DNA of 64,000 nucleotides, taken from Methanovulcanius yangii (lineage in GTDB: Archaea; Halobacteriota; Methanomicrobia; Methanomicrobiales; Methanomicrobiaceae). Under the pieces are notes generated by a model, which was not told the DNA's origin, searched no databases, and saw only the letters and a list, made by a program, of their open reading frames with translations. The translations under genes and the position numbers were made by a program. Where the stretch lies: positions 2,037,780 to 2,101,779 of the forward strand of contig NZ_LTBL01000001.1 in NCBI RefSeq assembly GCF_018687785.1. Direction: 5' to 3'. Below, in pieces: positions 53,886 through 63,570 of the stretch (the stretch's first letter is position 1; each line of letters begins with the position of its first letter).

Positions 53886-54659
53886 ATGACACGGACGGTT
53901 GTACTCTCGGAAGACCCGGAATTTCTCGCTGAACTCTCCGAGTACCTGGAGGTGCTGTCGAGCCCGACCCGCCTGAAGATTCTCCGGGCAATCGAACACC
54001 GGCCAATGGAGATCCGTGAGATTGCAGCGGAGATCGATACCAGTTACGAAAATACGAAGAAGCACCTGAACAAACTTGCGGCGGCGGGAGTGATCAAAAA
54101 GGAGGCGGGCCTCGGGCGCGAGACGGCAAAGGGGGTCCATCCGGTCTGGAAGTTCTCCCTTCAGCCGGGGGGCCTCGAGTCGGTGATCACGAGTCTCGGG
54201 GTCTTCTCGGGCAGTGCGGTCCCGGCGGGATACGGCGACGTGGCTTCCCGCATCCGCACCGTCAAGTCGCTCCTGACGGAGGACGAGGTCTCCCCAATGC
54301 TCCTGGTAACGCAGGGGGAGGAGGACGGGAGGATCTATCACCTCGCCGGGGCGACCGTCGCCCTCGGAAGGGAGGACCCCCCGAATGCTGCCCTCTATGA
54401 CCCCGAAACGGATGTCGTCCTTCCCACGTCGTATGCCGCCGTCTCCCGGGTGTCGAAGCCCCACGCCCGCCTGACCCGCACCGGCGGCCGGTGGCTGCTG
54501 GAGGACTGCGGCAGTACCGGGCAGACCTTTGTGAACGGCATCCCCCTCGGAAGGAATGCATCAAAACCCGTTTCGGAGGGGGACATCATCGACCTCGCAA
54601 GCGGTGCCGGAAGCGCCCGGTTCGTGGTGATCGGGGCAGAGGGCGACGGAGAGGAATGA
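53886..54659 (+). CDS. Winged-helix FHA-domain regulator
   Basis: This 257-residue protein has an ArsR-type winged helix in the first 95 residues (YLEVLSSPTRLKILRAIEHRPMEIREIAAEI) and a forkhead-associated domain at about residues 160-250. The phosphothreonine-binding signature is complete: Gly-Arg (ALGRED), Ser-x-x-His (VSKPHARL) and Asn-Gly (TFVNGIP). It probably binds a protein phosphorylated by the kinase of the next gene and switches DNA binding. The stop codon overlaps the kinase start. The regulon is unknown. Confidence 0.9.
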   Translation: MTRTVVLSEDPEFLAELSEYLEVLSSPTRLKILRAIEHRPMEIREIAAEIDTSYENTKKHLNKLAAAGVIKKEAGLGRETAKGVHPVWKFSLQPGGLESVITSLGVFSGSAVPAGYGDVASRIRTVKSLLTEDEVSPMLLVTQGEEDGRIYHLAGATVALGREDPPNAALYDPETDVVLPTSYAAVSRVSKPHARLTRTGGRWLLEDCGSTGQTFVNGIPLGRNASKPVSEGDIIDLASGAGSARFVVIGAEGDGEE

Positions 54660-56032
54660 CGATGAAGGTTCTCCACCGCTGGTTTAGCATCGCTCTCATT
54701 CTCTGCCTCCTGTTTGCGGTGCCGGCAATGGCAAAGTCGGATAACGCAAATTCGGACAAGACCCCCCCCGGTCAGGTGAAGCCCACCACTCCTGTCCCGA
54801 CACCGGAGCCCACGACCGCACCGACAGCGGAGGAAACACCGGCGGCAACGCCTGAGCCGACGACCACGGCGGTGGCCGCCGATGCGGCAGGCGATGAACC
54901 GACGAGCGTGCCGACGGAGAACGGCACGGGAACGGAGGGAACGTCCGGCGAGGAGGGGGTTGAGGGAGTGAACCCCCTCCTCGTCCTTCTCCCGGCCGCG
55001 GCGCTCCTTGCGGCGGGCGCCGTCATTGTCACCCGGCGGCGACCCCGGGCCGGAGCGGCGGTAGGTGGTGGTGAGGAGGTCGTACGCTCCGGGGTGGATG
55101 CTGATGATGAAGAGAGCGGAGGCCGTGGTGACGGTGCCGGGGCTGCGTCGGTCCGGACGGTGGTGCAGCGGTCGCCGGAGGCGGCACCTGCTCCCGCCGC
55201 CGCAACGGAGATGACCGGCTTTCCGGCCGCCCTTGCGCCCAAGTACCGGGGCGTCACCTACCTCGGGCAGGGGGGCATCGCCCGGGTGTACCGGGCGGAG
55301 CGGGTATCCGACGGGGCGGTGGTCGCGGTGAAGTGCCCGCTCGTCCCCGACGAGGAGACCGGTACCCACTTCATGCGGGAGATCCGGTTCTGGGAGCGGC
55401 TGCATCACCCGAACATCCTCGCCATCCATGCGGCAAACATCCTGCCGGTTCCCTATGTCGAGATGGAGTATGCCGACCACTCCCTGAAGGACTGCCTCCT
55501 TCCCCTCCCGCCGGAGGAGGCCGTGCGGGTCATCCGGGGGGTCGCCGCGGGGCTTGCCTTTGCCCACGATAACGGGGTCATTCACCGGGACATCAAACTG
55601 GAGAACATCCTCTGTGCGGCGGACGGGACCCCGAAGATCACCGACTGGGGGCTGGGGAGCGTCACCGACGGGGGGCACCGGACCCGGGTCGGCGGCTTCT
55701 CCCCCGGCTATGCGGCCCCCGAGCAGCTGCGGCCGTCGGTCCACGGTGCCGAGGATGCGAGGACCGACCTGTACCAGCTGGGCGTGCTCTTCTTCGAACT
55801 TCTCACCGGCACCCTCCCCTTCCCCGGCGAGGGGATGGGGGAGGTGACGCTCGCCATTCTCGGGGAGCCCGCCCCCGTCCCTTCGGCGGCCGGTGCCCCG
55901 ACGGACGCCTACGATGCGGTGGTCCTCCGCTGCCTTGCAAAGGAGAAGGAGGGGCGCTTCGCCTCTGTTGCCGACTTCTGTTCGGCCCTGCAGGAGGCCA
56001 CAGACGATGGCGGCCATCCCACGGGTGGATAA
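54656..56032 (+). CDS. Transmembrane Ser/Thr protein kinase (Hanks type)
   Basis: The 458-residue protein has a Sec signal peptide (cleavage after AMA near residue 28), an external Pro/Thr/Glu-rich stretch, one membrane helix near residues 105-125, and a cytoplasmic kinase domain from about 200 to 455. Catalytic features are present: GQGGIARVY glycine loop, AVKCP lysine, HRDIKLENIL catalytic loop, DWG in place of DFG, and APEQL. The topology is opposite to PknB types, with the sensor part N-terminal. It starts with ATG overlapping the FHA gene (ATGA). Confidence 0.93.
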   Translation: MTMKVLHRWFSIALILCLLFAVPAMAKSDNANSDKTPPGQVKPTTPVPTPEPTTAPTAEETPAATPEPTTTAVAADAAGDEPTSVPTENGTGTEGTSGEEGVEGVNPLLVLLPAAALLAAGAVIVTRRRPRAGAAVGGGEEVVRSGVDADDEESGGRGDGAGAASVRTVVQRSPEAAPAPAAATEMTGFPAALAPKYRGVTYLGQGGIARVYRAERVSDGAVVAVKCPLVPDEETGTHFMREIRFWERLHHPNILAIHAANILPVPYVEMEYADHSLKDCLLPLPPEEAVRVIRGVAAGLAFAHDNGVIHRDIKLENILCAADGTPKITDWGLGSVTDGGHRTRVGGFSPGYAAPEQLRPSVHGAEDARTDLYQLGVLFFELLTGTLPFPGEGMGEVTLAILGEPAPVPSAAGAPTDAYDAVVLRCLAKEKEGRFASVADFCSALQEATDDGGHPTGG

Positions 56033-56153
56033 GGGGAACCGCCCGGTTCCCCACAGGGAACGGATGTATTTTCTTAATATATATGCGAACCGTACCAACA
56101 GGAATGCAAGGGAACGACGAGGAACGCGTTCCCGCCAAAGGAGTATACCAGCA

Positions 56154-56996
56154 ATGAAACGAACCACACTGGTCATCGGATGCGTTCTCTGCCTCTGCCT
56201 CTGTGCGGTCGCAGTGGCACCGGCGATGGCAAAGAATGTGATCAGTCCCCAGGCGGACAAGCTCGTCGATCACAAGCTCGACAAGGGGATGTCCGGGAAT
56301 GGGGCGCTCAGGCAGGCCGACGGCCAGGTGATCAGCAATGCCAGTGCAGCGACGAACGAGTTCAGGATGCAGCAGTTCAACGACAGCGTCGCCTGGGGGG
56401 AGGCGCTGATCGGTGAAGTGAATGCCTTGGGATATGACACCTCGAAGGCCGAGGCGGTTCTTGCGCAGCTGACCGGACAGGAGGGCGCCCTCAGAAATGC
56501 GCTTGGATCCGGTAAGCAGGGGCAGATGACCTCCGTGATGGCAAAGAACAATGCGCTCACGAAGCAGCTTCGGATGTCCCTGAACAACTGCATCCGGGCA
56601 AACGGCACGGAAAACGGCACCATGGAGATGGACCGGCTCCGTGAGAACTGCACCGCCATCGATGCGGAGTATCTTGAACTCAGGTATGAGAACCGCCTGA
56701 TGTACGGGGAGGAGATCATCGACATCTTCAATGCATCAGGGTATGACACCACGACCGCAGGAGAACAGCTGGGCGTCATCGCGGCGAACAACGGCACCTT
56801 CATGAACGCGACGGCGAACGAAGACCGCCCGGCGATGAACAAGGTGATGAACGAGAACAAAAAGGCCTGGAACACGGGCAAGCGCTCGCTCTGGGACCAG
56901 CTCAGGTCCTTCTTCTTCGGCGGGGACGTGACCGAAGAGGAGAATGAAACGGCCGCTGATGAACCCGCACCGGACAACGAGACCGCAGCATCATAA
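56154..56996 (+). CDS. Secreted two-repeat protein of unknown function
   Basis: The 280-residue protein has a signal peptide ending in AMA and is predicted to be exported. Two related blocks (WGEALIGEVNALGYDTSKAEAVLAQL and YGEEIIDIFNASGYDTTTAGEQLGVI, about residues 67 and 180) suggest a duplicated helical domain. Several NxT/S sites (NGT, NAT, NCT) could be glycosylated. AAAGGAG lies before ATG 56154. It is downstream of the kinase gene and may be a surface partner of its external part, but this is inference. Confidence 0.75.
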   Translation: MKRTTLVIGCVLCLCLCAVAVAPAMAKNVISPQADKLVDHKLDKGMSGNGALRQADGQVISNASAATNEFRMQQFNDSVAWGEALIGEVNALGYDTSKAEAVLAQLTGQEGALRNALGSGKQGQMTSVMAKNNALTKQLRMSLNNCIRANGTENGTMEMDRLRENCTAIDAEYLELRYENRLMYGEEIIDIFNASGYDTTTAGEQLGVIAANNGTFMNATANEDRPAMNKVMNENKKAWNTGKRSLWDQLRSFFFGGDVTEEENETAADEPAPDNETAAS

Positions 56997-58468: not shown

Positions 58469-60190
58469 ATGTCGCTCAAGACCCTGCTCGTGACCCCGGC
58501 AGGCAAGGAGAAAATATGGGATGTCCCCGGGAGAAACCCTCCCGACACTGTCCGTGCAGAAGACGCGTTCACGGGCCGGTTCGCCCGGCGCTGCGCCCAG
58601 TACGCCCGCATCCACTACCCGGAGGACTGGGTGATCCTCTCCCCCAACTACGGGTATCTCCTGCCTGACCAGGAGGTCAGAAACCACACCACCGATGAGT
58701 TCGGGGCCTACAGCCTCGAGTTCGATACCATCCGGGAGAACGCCGAGTATGACGGGCTCCTCGATTACGAGTGCGTCATCTTCCTCGGCAGCGAGGAGCG
58801 GTACGGCGGATTCATCGAGACGGTCAAGAAGACGTTCACGAAGAGCTGGGTGGAGTTTCCCCTGACCGACGCCCGGTCGGACGGGGAGATGCTGGGAATT
58901 CTGGTCGATTCCCTCACCCGCAATGCACCGCTGCGGCGAAACGTCATCCGCCTCGCCCGGGTGCGGGTGGACGGCCTCTTCGGGGCGCTCGACCACGACA
59001 TCCCGCTCTTTCCGGAGGACTCGCTCTCCATCATCACCGCTCCGAACGGGTACGGCAAGACGACGGTGCTGCGGATCCTGCGGGCCATATTCATGGGCAA
59101 CGTCGACGAACTCCGCGATCTCCCCTTCGAGGCGGTGCAGCTCGAGTTTCTCCGGGAGGAGGGGAGCGACGGCGGTGCACCCGACAGGCTCACGATCGCA
59201 AAGGAGCAGGTGACCCGCTATCCCCTCCGGGTGGACCTCCACTTCCGGTACACCGGGGCGGGTGGCGTCGACCGTACCTACACGCTCGAGGGCGGGGAGT
59301 ACCGGGAGGACGAGGTCTCGGCGGCGCTCTCCGCGATCATCCCGCCGGTTCCGGTGAAGTACATCTCGGCGCAGCGCCTCTGGTACGAGAAGGTGCCGGG
59401 TGCGGGGATGCCCGGCGACCTGCTGGGGTCGTTTCCGTCCGGTGAGGAGAGCTCCTACGCACCCACGGTCGTGGCTTATGCCGAGGACATCAAAAAGCGC
59501 ATCCGTGCCCTCCTCTCCGATTACGCCTCCATCGCCCAGGAACTCGACGCCACGTATCCTGCCCGCTATCTCACCTCACTCGCGGCGGGGGCGGGGGTCC
59601 TCCCGCCGGAGGATATCGGCCCCTCGCTTCTCGCCCTTCAGGAGGAGCGGAGGATGTTCGAGACTCTCGGCTTTCTGCCCTATACACGCCTCGAGGGGGA
59701 GGAGATGATCCGGACGGAGATGATCCCGGACAACCCGGCGGTGCAGCAGGCAATCGCCCTCTATATCGCCGACTCAAGGGAGAAATACCAGATCTTCGGG
59801 GCACTGAAGAAGAAGATCGATCTCCTCCAGCAGATCATAAACGACCTCTTCCTCAACATCACCCTCACGGTGGACGTGGAGAGCGGGTTTCTGCTCCGCT
59901 TCGGCGGCGTCACCCCCGTGCCTCCCATATCGCTCTCCTCCGGAGAGCAGAACCAGCTCGTGATGTACTACGATTTGATCTTCCAGACGGACCCCGGCAC
60001 CCTCGTCCTCATCGACGAGCCGGAGATCTCGCTCCATGTCGTCTGGCAGCGCCAGTTCCTCGAGTGCATCCGGGAGATCATCGGTATCGCCGACGCAGAC
60101 TTCATCCTCGCCACCCACTCCCCCCAGCTGATCCACACGAGCTGGGATCACACCATCGACCTCTCCGGGACCATGAACGATGAAGGGTAA
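58469..60190 (+). CDS. PARIS-like SMC-type ATPase with N-terminal DUF6884-like domain
   Basis: The 573-residue protein has an N-terminal domain (about residues 1-130) with LLVTPAGKEK, DWVILSPNYGYLLPDQEV and YECVIFLGS, similar in pattern to DUF6884 or YaaA-like proteins. The rest is an SMC-like ATPase: Walker A APNGYGKTT (residues 191-199), ABC signature LSSGEQ (489-494), Walker B VLIDEPE (Asp516, Glu517) and switch His in ATHSPQ (550). The next gene encodes a DUF4435/TOPRIM protein, overlapped by 11 bases. ATPase plus DUF4435 is the arrangement of the PARIS anti-phage system (AriA-AriB). The extra N-terminal domain is not part of the standard AriA that I know. Confidence 0.8.
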   Translation: MSLKTLLVTPAGKEKIWDVPGRNPPDTVRAEDAFTGRFARRCAQYARIHYPEDWVILSPNYGYLLPDQEVRNHTTDEFGAYSLEFDTIRENAEYDGLLDYECVIFLGSEERYGGFIETVKKTFTKSWVEFPLTDARSDGEMLGILVDSLTRNAPLRRNVIRLARVRVDGLFGALDHDIPLFPEDSLSIITAPNGYGKTTVLRILRAIFMGNVDELRDLPFEAVQLEFLREEGSDGGAPDRLTIAKEQVTRYPLRVDLHFRYTGAGGVDRTYTLEGGEYREDEVSAALSAIIPPVPVKYISAQRLWYEKVPGAGMPGDLLGSFPSGEESSYAPTVVAYAEDIKKRIRALLSDYASIAQELDATYPARYLTSLAAGAGVLPPEDIGPSLLALQEERRMFETLGFLPYTRLEGEEMIRTEMIPDNPAVQQAIALYIADSREKYQIFGALKKKIDLLQQIINDLFLNITLTVDVESGFLLRFGGVTPVPPISLSSGEQNQLVMYYDLIFQTDPGTLVLIDEPEISLHVVWQRQFLECIREIIGIADADFILATHSPQLIHTSWDHTIDLSGTMNDEG

Positions 60191-61235
60191 GAACCGCAGG
60201 TTTGCCGGCTACCGGCTGGAAGAGATCTGGGCGGACCCGGACGAGATCCGGGGGACGGTCGAGAAGATGGAGATGAACTATCCCGGCAACGGGGGCAAGG
60301 TCTTCGTCATCGTCGAAGGGCCGTATGACCTCGAGGTCTACGACCGGTGCTTCAACCGGGATTCAACCATCCTGCGGATCGCAAATTCCAAGGAGAACGT
60401 CCGCGACGTCGTCGCCGATATCCTCGCACAGAGCGGCGAGGGGGACGCCTCCCATATCATCGGGATCATCGACAGCGACTTCTCGCTCTTTACCGGGTCG
60501 GGCATCAAGGGCAAAAACCTCTTCATCACCGATACCCACGACCTCGAGACGATGCTCATCGCCTCGCCCGCCCTCGACCGGGTCATCGAGCATGTGGCGG
60601 CGGGCGCGATCCAACAGTCCTTTTCCCAGCGGGTGCAGGGGGATCTCCGGGGGGCCGACCTGCGCCACTCGCTCACGAAGGCGGCCCGGTACCTCGGCTT
60701 TGCCATCCTCGTCAACAACCGCCGCGGCCTCAACATCACCTTCAAGCACATCAACTGCAAGAAGCGGGACAACTTTGCCCGGTTCATCGACGCGGAGACG
60801 CTCGAGTGCAACCTCTCCTCCCTCGTCGGACTGATCGTCGAGAAGAACGGCGACCGCGGCGATGCATTCATCGAGGCGCTGCGCGAGGAGATGGGGGGGT
60901 CGGCGGGGTACTACTTTGAGTATCCGTGGCACATCTGCCGGGGTCACGACCTGATCTGCATCCTCCTGCGTGACCTCTCCTACCGCTATCCCCCGAGGTC
61001 CGGCGGAGAACTGCGGGGACGCGACCTCGAGGCCCTCCTGAGAAGCTATTACCGGGCGGAGTACTTCGCCCGCACCGACCTCTGCGACCGCATCCGTGCC
61101 TGGGAGGAGACGGTCTTCGGGAAGGGGGTCGAGGCGCTCTTTGTAAGGTCGGTCTACAATCAGGTGGGGAAGAAAAGCGGGAGAAAGGGCGGTCATTCCG
61201 GCGGGCGGCGGAGCGGGGGCGGGCCGTCGGTGTGA
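60180..61235 (+). CDS. DUF4435 (TOPRIM-like) protein, AriB-like effector
   Basis: The 351-residue protein carries a TOPRIM-like nuclease core: Glu46 in VFVIVEGPYDLEVYD, Asp98 and Asp100 in GIIDSDFSLF, and Asp/His/Glu in DTHDLETML (118-123). The pattern is that of DUF4435. In PARIS the AriB protein is released from AriA upon sensing a phage protein and cleaves host tRNA. The C-terminal region has a helical bundle and ends in a basic Gly/Arg/Ser tail. Co-translation with the ATPase gene is suggested by the 11-base overlap. The activation trigger in this archaeon is unknown. Confidence 0.85.
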   Translation: MKGKNRRFAGYRLEEIWADPDEIRGTVEKMEMNYPGNGGKVFVIVEGPYDLEVYDRCFNRDSTILRIANSKENVRDVVADILAQSGEGDASHIIGIIDSDFSLFTGSGIKGKNLFITDTHDLETMLIASPALDRVIEHVAAGAIQQSFSQRVQGDLRGADLRHSLTKAARYLGFAILVNNRRGLNITFKHINCKKRDNFARFIDAETLECNLSSLVGLIVEKNGDRGDAFIEALREEMGGSAGYYFEYPWHICRGHDLICILLRDLSYRYPPRSGGELRGRDLEALLRSYYRAEYFARTDLCDRIRAWEETVFGKGVEALFVRSVYNQVGKKSGRKGGHSGGRRSGGGPSV

Positions 61236-61380: not shown

Positions 61381-63570
61381 ATGTATTATGCGCACACATC
61401 CGAACATTCCGATAAAACCACCTGGCAGCCTCTGAAAGATCATCTGGAAAATGTTGCAGTTTTGGCATCACAATTTGCGGATGACTTTGAATCTTCTGCC
61501 TTCGGGTATGCCGGTGGGCTGTTGCATGATCTGGGCAAATATTCTCCTGAGTTTCAACGTCGTCTGGAAGGAGCGTCTGTCAGGGTAGATCATGCGACCG
61601 CCGGTGCAATCGAGGCAAGGGCTTCCTATCATCCGGCACAAAGCAGGATTCTTGAATACATCATCACCGGCCATCATGGCGGGATGGAGAATTTTGGCAA
61701 CCCTTCTTCTGGGCTGGAAAAACGCCTGAAGAAAAATTTTCTTGCGGACTATTCTGCATACCGAGACGAGATTGAAATTCCTTCCTTGGATGGCTTAAGT
61801 CCTCCCCTGACTCCATCTGACAGTGGGATGGGATTTCCCCTCTCGTTCTACATCCGAATGCTCTACTCATGCCTTGTCGATGCCGACTTCCTTGATACCG
61901 AACATTTTGTCGATCCTGCAAAGGCAACTCTCAGGGGAGAGTCGGAGTCCTTCGATGTTCTCATTAAGAAATTTGATACACACATGGAGGGTATTACGGC
62001 AAAAGCGGATGAGACTGCGATAAACGTACGTCGTCAGGAAATCTATCGGCAATGCAGGGAGAAGGCATACTTTCCCACCGGTTTTTTCACCCTCACTGTC
62101 CCGACGGGGGGCGGCAAGACGCTCTCCTCGATGGCATTTGCTCTCTCTCATCTGGAGCGGCACGATCTGAAGAGAATATTCTATGTGATACCTTACACGA
62201 GCATCATCGAACAAAACGCGGAAGTGTTCAGGAAGATCTTCGGGGCTGAGAATGTCCTCGAGCATCACAGCAATTTCGATCCAACGGGCGACCGGGCGGA
62301 CAAGGATCCGATTCCCGAAACCGTTGCGGAAACGCTTAGTCTCTCATCGGAAAACTGGGACATCCCGATTACCGTGACGACGAATGTCCAGTTTTTCGAG
62401 TCTCTCTTTTCGCACAAGCCTTCCCGCTGCCGCAAACTGCACAACCTCGCCAAGAGCGTGATCATTTTGGATGAGGCGCAGATGCTCCCGACCGGATACC
62501 TGAAGCCGTGCCTTGCAGCCCTGACCGAGCTGGTGGTAAACTACGGGGCGACGGTGGTCATCTGTACTGCGACCCAGCCGAAACTTGCTGATCTTCTGGA
62601 TGAGAACATCCGTCCTGTCGAGATCATGGACTCTCCTGATTCGCTCTATGAGGAGTTCAGACGAGTGTCGGTGAAGAGCGTCGGTTTGCTTGATGATGAT
62701 GACCTTTCTGCCAGGCTGATGGAGCAGAAGCAGGTTCTCTGCATCGTGAACACCCGCAGGCATGCTCAGGAGCTGTTCGACCGGATATCGGGGAGCGGGA
62801 ACTGCTATCATCTGAGCGCACGGATGTGCCCGGTGCATCGCCGAAAGCAACTCGATGCAATCAGACAATCGCTTTTGGCAGGACTGGACTGCAGGGTGGT
62901 ATCGACGCAGCTCATTGAGGCGGGAGTTGATATCGACTTTCCCGTGGTGTACCGGGCAATGACCGGGGCTGATTCGATATGTCAGGCGGCCGGACGATGT
63001 AACCGGGAAGGGAAACGAGAAATGGGGGAGGTATTCGTCTTTCAATCGTCCGAATCTTATGGAAAGGCGACTCCCTGGCAGAGGAGGGTGGCTGAGATCG
63101 GGGAGATGGTCTGCCGGGACTTTGAAGATCCGATGGCCCTGCCCGCCATTGGGGAATATTTCAGGAAGCTCTATTTTTACGAGGGTTCTGAGCTTGACAA
63201 GAAGAGGATTCTTCCCATGATTGAAGAGTTGGGTAGGAAAATGGAATTTCCATTTGAGGATGTCGGGACCTCGTTTTCGTTTATCGAGGATAATACGCGG
63301 GACGTAGTCATCCTCTATGATGCACAGGCACGGGACATCATCGAGCGGGTTCGTCGCGAAGGTTTTCCCGGAAGATTTGCCCGGAGACTTCAAGGATATT
63401 CGGTCAATGTCTATCCGAATGAGTTCAGGGAGATGGAGCGGGAAGGGGCGGTGGAACTGATCGCTGAGAAGTACTACGTGCTGAAGAATTGCATGGAATC
63501 GTATTCTGAGTCAGTTGGATTATTGAACAAAAAATATAACGATGCTGAAAATTTATTATTGATTATCTAG
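61381..63570 (+). CDS. cas3: CRISPR-associated helicase-nuclease Cas3 (type I-C)
   Basis: The 729-residue protein has an N-terminal HD nuclease domain (LLHDLGKYSPEF, ITGHHGG) and a superfamily 2 helicase with Walker A (VPTGGGKTLSSM), DEAQ box (ILDEAQML) and motif VI (QAAGRCNREG). Size and organisation fit the type I-C Cas3, followed by cas5. It degrades DNA bound by the Cascade complex. The gene is less GC-rich than most of the window, which suggests it came as a mobile defence cassette. No transposase is nearby. Confidence 0.95.
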   Translation: MYYAHTSEHSDKTTWQPLKDHLENVAVLASQFADDFESSAFGYAGGLLHDLGKYSPEFQRRLEGASVRVDHATAGAIEARASYHPAQSRILEYIITGHHGGMENFGNPSSGLEKRLKKNFLADYSAYRDEIEIPSLDGLSPPLTPSDSGMGFPLSFYIRMLYSCLVDADFLDTEHFVDPAKATLRGESESFDVLIKKFDTHMEGITAKADETAINVRRQEIYRQCREKAYFPTGFFTLTVPTGGGKTLSSMAFALSHLERHDLKRIFYVIPYTSIIEQNAEVFRKIFGAENVLEHHSNFDPTGDRADKDPIPETVAETLSLSSENWDIPITVTTNVQFFESLFSHKPSRCRKLHNLAKSVIILDEAQMLPTGYLKPCLAALTELVVNYGATVVICTATQPKLADLLDENIRPVEIMDSPDSLYEEFRRVSVKSVGLLDDDDLSARLMEQKQVLCIVNTRRHAQELFDRISGSGNCYHLSARMCPVHRRKQLDAIRQSLLAGLDCRVVSTQLIEAGVDIDFPVVYRAMTGADSICQAAGRCNREGKREMGEVFVFQSSESYGKATPWQRRVAEIGEMVCRDFEDPMALPAIGEYFRKLYFYEGSELDKKRILPMIEELGRKMEFPFEDVGTSFSFIEDNTRDVVILYDAQARDIIERVRREGFPGRFARRLQGYSVNVYPNEFREMEREGAVELIAEKYYVLKNCMESYSESVGLLNKKYNDAENLLLII

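Follow-up and report, generated by a model that had tools for sequence, protein, structure and literature searches.

A wHTH-FHA regulator and a transmembrane Ser/Thr kinase form a conserved gene pair in Methanomicrobiales, a possible Ser/Thr-phosphorylation counterpart of two-component systems

We analyzed a 64,000-nucleotide stretch of Methanovulcanius yangii DNA (hereafter the window), in which the gene for a fusion of a winged helix-turn-helix (wHTH) and an FHA domain adjoins a transmembrane Hanks-type Ser/Thr kinase gene. Judged by sequence comparison and record titles, this pair constitutes a signalling module that is widespread in Methanomicrobiales and confined to that order. It is fairly probable that the regulator and the kinase act as a Ser/Thr-phosphorylation counterpart of a two-component system, with a switch at Thr4 of the regulator, an operator, and a reset by a PP2C phosphatase. 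More tentatively, we propose an order-wide archaeal class of such Ser/Thr analogues of two-component systems, in which the factor's own FHA domain would capture phospho-Thr4, the Hanks kinase would be the writer, and a ATTGAACC-N4-GGTTCAAT-type operator would serve envelope and secreted genes. About 3 kb thus hold the kinase and the regulator together with one candidate phosphosite and candidates for the operator and the target. To our knowledge, archaeal signal paths from a Ser/Thr kinase to DNA are hardly known outside Sulfolobus, and literature searches, which covered few subscription papers, returned no earlier description of an archaeal wHTH-FHA/kinase pair.

The regulator, P0001 (257 aa; 53886..54659, plus strand), was defined by Pfam and an AF2 model. 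Matches above the Pfam cut-offs were obtained for HTH_20/HTH_5 (ArsR-type) at aa 24-72 and for FHA (2.5e-12) at aa 160-237, confirming the wHTH-FHA fusion that the original prediction had placed here. The AF2 model has a mean pLDDT of 82, with both the winged helix and the FHA domain well predicted. As judged from sequence columns and the model, the winged-HTH DNA-binding domain is encoded by 53916..54161 (plus strand). Its TSY-NTKKH recognition-helix region is invariant throughout the family, which fits a common operator. The FHA domain (54294..54635, plus strand) was delimited by Pfam, column counts, and Foldseek, where the FHA domains of DgcB, OdhI, and GarA were among the top fold matches. 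In 53 non-redundant homologues, the pocket residues Arg162, His193, and Asn217 were invariant and position 190 was Ser or Thr; the TNG turn of P0001 has Gly where Asn is usual. Sequence and model thus assign to P0001 the fold and the phosphothreonine pocket residues of an FHA domain.

The kinase, P0002 (458 aa; 54656..56032, plus strand; Pfam Pkinase 9e-38), begins with an ATG at 54656, and the regulator gene stops with a TGA at 54657-54659, so that the two genes overlap by 4 bp. P0002 carries the VAVK Lys, HRDIKLEN (HRD), DWG replacing DFG, and APE, and these motifs identify it as a Hanks-type Ser/Thr kinase when DWG is read as DFG-like. Hydropathy analysis placed hydrophobic segments close to aa 10 and aa 108. 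As the kinase domain starts from about aa 200, the N-terminal part is outside. Both the overlap and the N-terminal external part had been predicted, and both were borne out. The outside part is a T/P-rich stalk (54734..54976, plus strand) followed by a transmembrane helix assigned by hydropathy (54977..55036, plus strand). A Pfam scan of the stalk, about 80 aa of low complexity, returned no domain, and no ligand-binding domain was recognisable in it. The kinases of Methanoculleus-type relatives likewise have a short T/P-rich stalk and one transmembrane helix, whereas in those of other lineages an outside part of about 300 residues precedes a single transmembrane helix or several. A membrane kinase with such a lineage-variable outside part may sense the state of the cell surface; membrane strain or the state of a surface protein as the stimulus are guesses.

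Next, a profile built from the two wHTH-FHA proteins of the source genome was run on 150 genomes of the order. Matches were obtained in 98 genomes and in 29 of 35 genera, and the view that wHTH-FHA fusions are uncommon is therefore wrong inside Methanomicrobiales. A kinase profile matched in 100 of the 150 genomes. Among the matches listed, 126 of 146 regulator genes are followed within 3 kb by a kinase domain on the same strand, and 94 genomes hold both regulator and kinase, 4 the regulator only, 3 the kinase only, and 49 neither. Some of the 20 unpaired wHTH-FHA genes are orphan paralogues, and some lie on short contigs. Phylum-wide, 64 of 393 genomes matched, all in the one order, and the record titles of 80 named loci were nearly all Methanomicrobiales or unspecific Euryarchaeota. 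One contig titled Thermoplasmata (L067) carries a Methanoregula-like pair and is probably mis-binned. The pairing and co-occurrence, with these few exceptions, support the inner part of the predicted outside-to-DNA route, from kinase to phosphothreonine reader to DNA; the secreted or surface ligand at its outer end was not supported, as discussed below.

The source genome (2.29 Mb) has two FHA genes, both wHTH-FHA fusions and 45% identical, and its two top-scoring Pkinase domains are those adjoining them. The second locus lies on the minus strand of C1 at about 1.804-1.813 Mb (L003:1598-9505, about 1.8046-1.8125 Mb) and has the order PP2C phosphatase, wHTH-FHA, kinase, CARDB membrane protein, ABC ATPase (assigned by sequence), MacB/FtsX permease, and small secreted repeat protein. 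The PP2C gene shares a 4-bp overlap with the wHTH-FHA gene, and the kinase has a NosD-like beta-helix outside part and several transmembrane helices. The order regulator, kinase, CARDB, ABC is common to six genomes. We suppose that the PP2C phosphatase of this paralogous locus would reset the system. Elsewhere in the genome, a further kinase lies beside a different PP2C-like phosphatase with no FHA gene linked (L007:811-3079; G000:C1, about 1.180 Mb).

The proposed phosphorylation site and FHA self-ligand, Thr4 (codon 53895..53897, plus strand), emerged from the homologue columns and the AF2 model. As observed, this residue is Thr in 53 of 53 non-redundant homologues and lies in a tail (aa 1-8) with pLDDT below 50, which is predicted to be disordered. 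The following residues are hydrophobic at +1 (51/53), +2 (47/53), and +3 (45/53), an acidic residue occurs at +4 to +6 in all 53 homologues, and position -2 is mostly Ser or Ala. DgcB, GarA, and OdhI each carry, in a disordered N-terminal tail, a Thr with hydrophobic residues at +2/+3 that serves as the ligand for their own FHA domain (PMC6733907). P0001 resembles them in the conserved Thr of a disordered tail, the hydrophobic +2/+3 positions, and the FHA fold. However, their tails have Glu at -2 and Ser at +1, and that of P0001 has neither; moreover, the targets of those proteins are metabolic enzymes or a GGDEF domain, whereas the FHA domain of P0001 is attached to a winged helix. The resemblance is thus a lead, drawn from sequence and model, that Thr4 may be phosphorylated, and its invariance could have another reason. 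If the lead holds, the active kinase would phosphorylate Thr4, the FHA domain would capture the modified tail, either in cis or across a dimer, thereby altering the binding of the winged helix to a ATTGAACC-N4-GGTTCAAT-like operator. Separately, two loci (L012:13903-14721 and L112:10036-10854) hold a divergent second wHTH-FHA copy beside a kinase, in which the family N-terminal tail and the LSEYL motif are altered (CKTFELPEDMRDYL).

A similar Thr is present in the kinase. The juxtamembrane Thr168 (SVRTVVQ; codon 55157..55159, plus strand) resembles the regulator tail TRTVVL and is a possible FHA docking site, which the kinase may phosphorylate by itself and thereby dock the FHA domain. Juxtamembrane [RED]T[VIR][VIL] motifs were found in 29 of 85 kinases against 2.4 expected in shuffles, in a set of sequences related to each other. 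This enrichment fits a different mechanism without a self-switch, namely that the FHA domain docks in trans on the autophosphorylated juxtamembrane Thr, as in EmbR, while the kinase modifies the regulator elsewhere and Thr4 serves, for example, as a DNA contact. Phosphorylation of EmbR by PknH indeed requires the FHA domain of EmbR (PMC4601284). However, the juxtamembrane motif is variable in both sequence and position, unlike the invariant Thr4, and we consider docking of this kind alone doubtful. In the self-ligand model that we prefer, Thr168 may add a docking site to the Thr4 switch.

The third gene, P0003 (280 aa; 56154..56996, plus strand), encodes a secreted protein with two repeats, as had been predicted. 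The signal sequence was recognised by eye, and the local score of the repeats was 91 compared with 27.8 +/- 5.3 for shuffles (0/1000 as high). The AF2 model is all-helical with a mean pLDDT of 66; with this moderate model, no significant fold match was obtained, nor any Pfam or NCBIfam family, and naming P0003 by family or fold was rejected on these searches. P0003 was found in 5 close genomes (4 besides that of the window) plus one weak match, and it lies downstream of the kinase in 5/5; nearly all genomes with the regulator-kinase pair are without it. The prediction that the genes are not separated in relatives held for the regulator and kinase. Furthermore, the P0003 gene is served by a TATA promoter of its own, and the conserved palindrome in this promoter also occurs at the second kinase locus, making P0003 a likely output of the pathway. 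The earlier model took secreted P0003 as a ligand or sensor partner of the kinase, in keeping with its constant place downstream of the kinase in those relatives that have it. Its absence from nearly all pair-bearing genomes, its separate promoter with an operator candidate, and the low-complexity kinase stalk argue against a ligand, which we rejected as quite improbable. From the sequence comparisons, P0003 is probably a target of the regulator-kinase pair and not the signal sensed; as such, it might conceivably feed back on the kinase.

We then analyzed the 121-bp interval between the kinase and P0003 genes, which contains six GGAAC/GTTCC words, the densest such cluster in the window, and a footprint conserved in five genomes. 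The operator candidate defined by this footprint, GGGGAACC-GCCC-GGTTCCCC with a third half-site GGGAACG (56033..56062, plus strand), contains a perfect 9-bp inverted repeat. It lies upstream of a BRE/TATA-like element TATTTTCTTAATATATATG of the P0003 gene (56067..56085, plus strand), which is kept in relatives. In archaeal promoters, a site upstream of BRE/TATA favours activation, and activation of P0003 is therefore likelier than repression. A pattern GAAC-N6-GTTC-N6-GGGAAC, although unique in the genome, was rejected as the operator since it was too narrow; it was replaced by AACC-N4-GGTT from the comparison of the two loci. As found in that comparison, the second-locus promoter after the kinase shares AACC-N4-GGTT, TATTTT, and the TATA element with the window, and the spacing from palindrome to TATA region is 18 bp in both loci. 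The exact pattern AACCN4GGTT-N18-TATTTT has 2 copies genome-wide, located 1 and 5 bp past the stops of the two kinase genes, so that one lies upstream of the P0003 gene and one upstream of the CARDB-ABC-FtsX operon. Three one-mismatch matches were obtained; two of them are in the second locus, and one of these two precedes the small secreted protein there. When all mismatch classes were counted, the control pattern was as frequent as the real one (11 and 6 compared with 4 and 6), indicating that two-mismatch matches are chance. The operator argument thus rests on exact and one-mismatch matches and their places. The sites themselves are observed upstream of the TATA region of secreted or envelope genes, in the window P0003, where the regulator would bind.

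Similar sites were observed in relatives, upstream of small secreted repeat proteins and CARDB operons. In the loci of relatives, 39 matches were counted in 1.59 Mb of partly redundant sequence compared with 1-6 for scrambled patterns. AACCN4GGTT occurred in 12 of 48 regions upstream of the regulator and 10 of 44 downstream of the kinase compared with 56 of 2432 background regions, the promoters of relatives being non-independent samples; spacings of 3, 5, and 6 and the reversed order of AACC and GGTT gave 0-1 occurrences. Across 30 genomes, 10 of 38 sites with at most one mismatch lie within 1 kb of the pair loci, which account for 0.3% of the sequence (p 3e-17, assuming a genome total of about 76 Mb). 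Other families have the palindrome some 75-140 bp ahead of the regulator gene; its form is often TTGAACC-N4-GGTTCAAT, accompanied by a third half-site. There, the regulator may bind upstream of its own gene. In the source genome, the full palindrome was not found upstream of the window regulator gene or of the PP2C gene; the window regulator promoter has GGTTC half-sites only, at -230 and -180.

The palindrome might instead be read by another regulator, such as another ArsR-like protein, or be an RNA hairpin, with the wHTH-FHA protein acting elsewhere. Methanoculleus-like genomes (g12; L180-L189) have up to three exact TTGAACC-N4-GGTTCAA sites each, far from the pair and several of them before secreted-protein genes. 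One Methanoculleus-like genome, G063 (99% complete), has three exact sites and no wHTH-FHA, with only other ArsR-like proteins matching weakly, which points to a recent loss of the regulator or to a different reader of the palindromes in that genome. The distal single-mismatch sites of other genomes are for the most part no more frequent than expected by chance, with 13 in 24 regulator-less genomes other than G063. The window copy could also fold as a stem-loop. However, the site is linked to the pair in several families and keeps a constant 18-bp distance to the TATA region, and 2 of 5 P0003 promoters break one stem base pair while retaining the half-site pattern (AACT/GGTT, AACC/AGTT), which agrees better with a DNA site than with a hairpin. 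We therefore consider these readings unlikely and retain the palindrome as the candidate operator of the wHTH-FHA regulator.

Among known systems, mycobacterial EmbR-PknH is similar in combining a transmembrane Ser/Thr kinase, a DNA-binding protein that carries FHA at its C-terminus, and a Ser/Thr phosphatase; there, the kinase acts on the DNA-binding protein and the phosphatase MstP is the antagonist (PMC4601284). However, EmbR consists of an OmpR-type HTH, a BTA domain, and the C-terminal FHA domain (PMC4601284), whereas P0001 has an ArsR-type wHTH, an invariant Thr in its N-terminal tail, and an archaeal host. No Pfam match to an OmpR-type HTH or a BTA domain was obtained for P0001, and its membership in EmbR/SARP was rejected as only ArsR-type HTH_20/HTH_5 and FHA were found. 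By analogy, the conserved gene pairing suggests that the archaeal pair may work like EmbR-PknH. If so, the EmbR-PknH logic would have arisen separately in methanogens, joined with a tail switch of the GarA/OdhI/DgcB style.

Similarly, the Sulfolobus Arn network (FHA protein ArnA, vWA protein ArnB, kinases ArnC/ArnD) has an archaeal FHA protein under a Ser/Thr kinase that affects gene expression. Unlike P0001, however, ArnA contains a zinc finger and lacks a winged helix, and its partner is ArnB; for the Arn system, nothing hinting at direct DNA binding was found (PMC12852372). A zinc finger had no Pfam match in P0001 and no conserved vWA gene was recognised by eye beside the pair, and Arn membership was rejected for lack of the zinc finger-FHA and vWA partner features. 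Bacterial two-component systems likewise have a membrane kinase adjoining a DNA-binding regulator, in variable copies and with variable outside domains, but they use a histidine kinase and a receiver, whereas the archaeal pair would rely on Ser/Thr chemistry of the Hanks type and on reading by FHA. Neither a histidine kinase nor a receiver domain was returned when P0001 and P0002 were scanned with Pfam, and family membership was rejected accordingly.

Further along the window, an AAA_21/AAA_15 ATPase gene is followed, with a short overlap, by that of a DUF4435 protein (58469-61235), and this pair looks like a defence system. A Cas3-type HD nuclease-helicase with Cas3 HD and helicase domains is encoded at 61381-63570, where a CRISPR locus probably begins.
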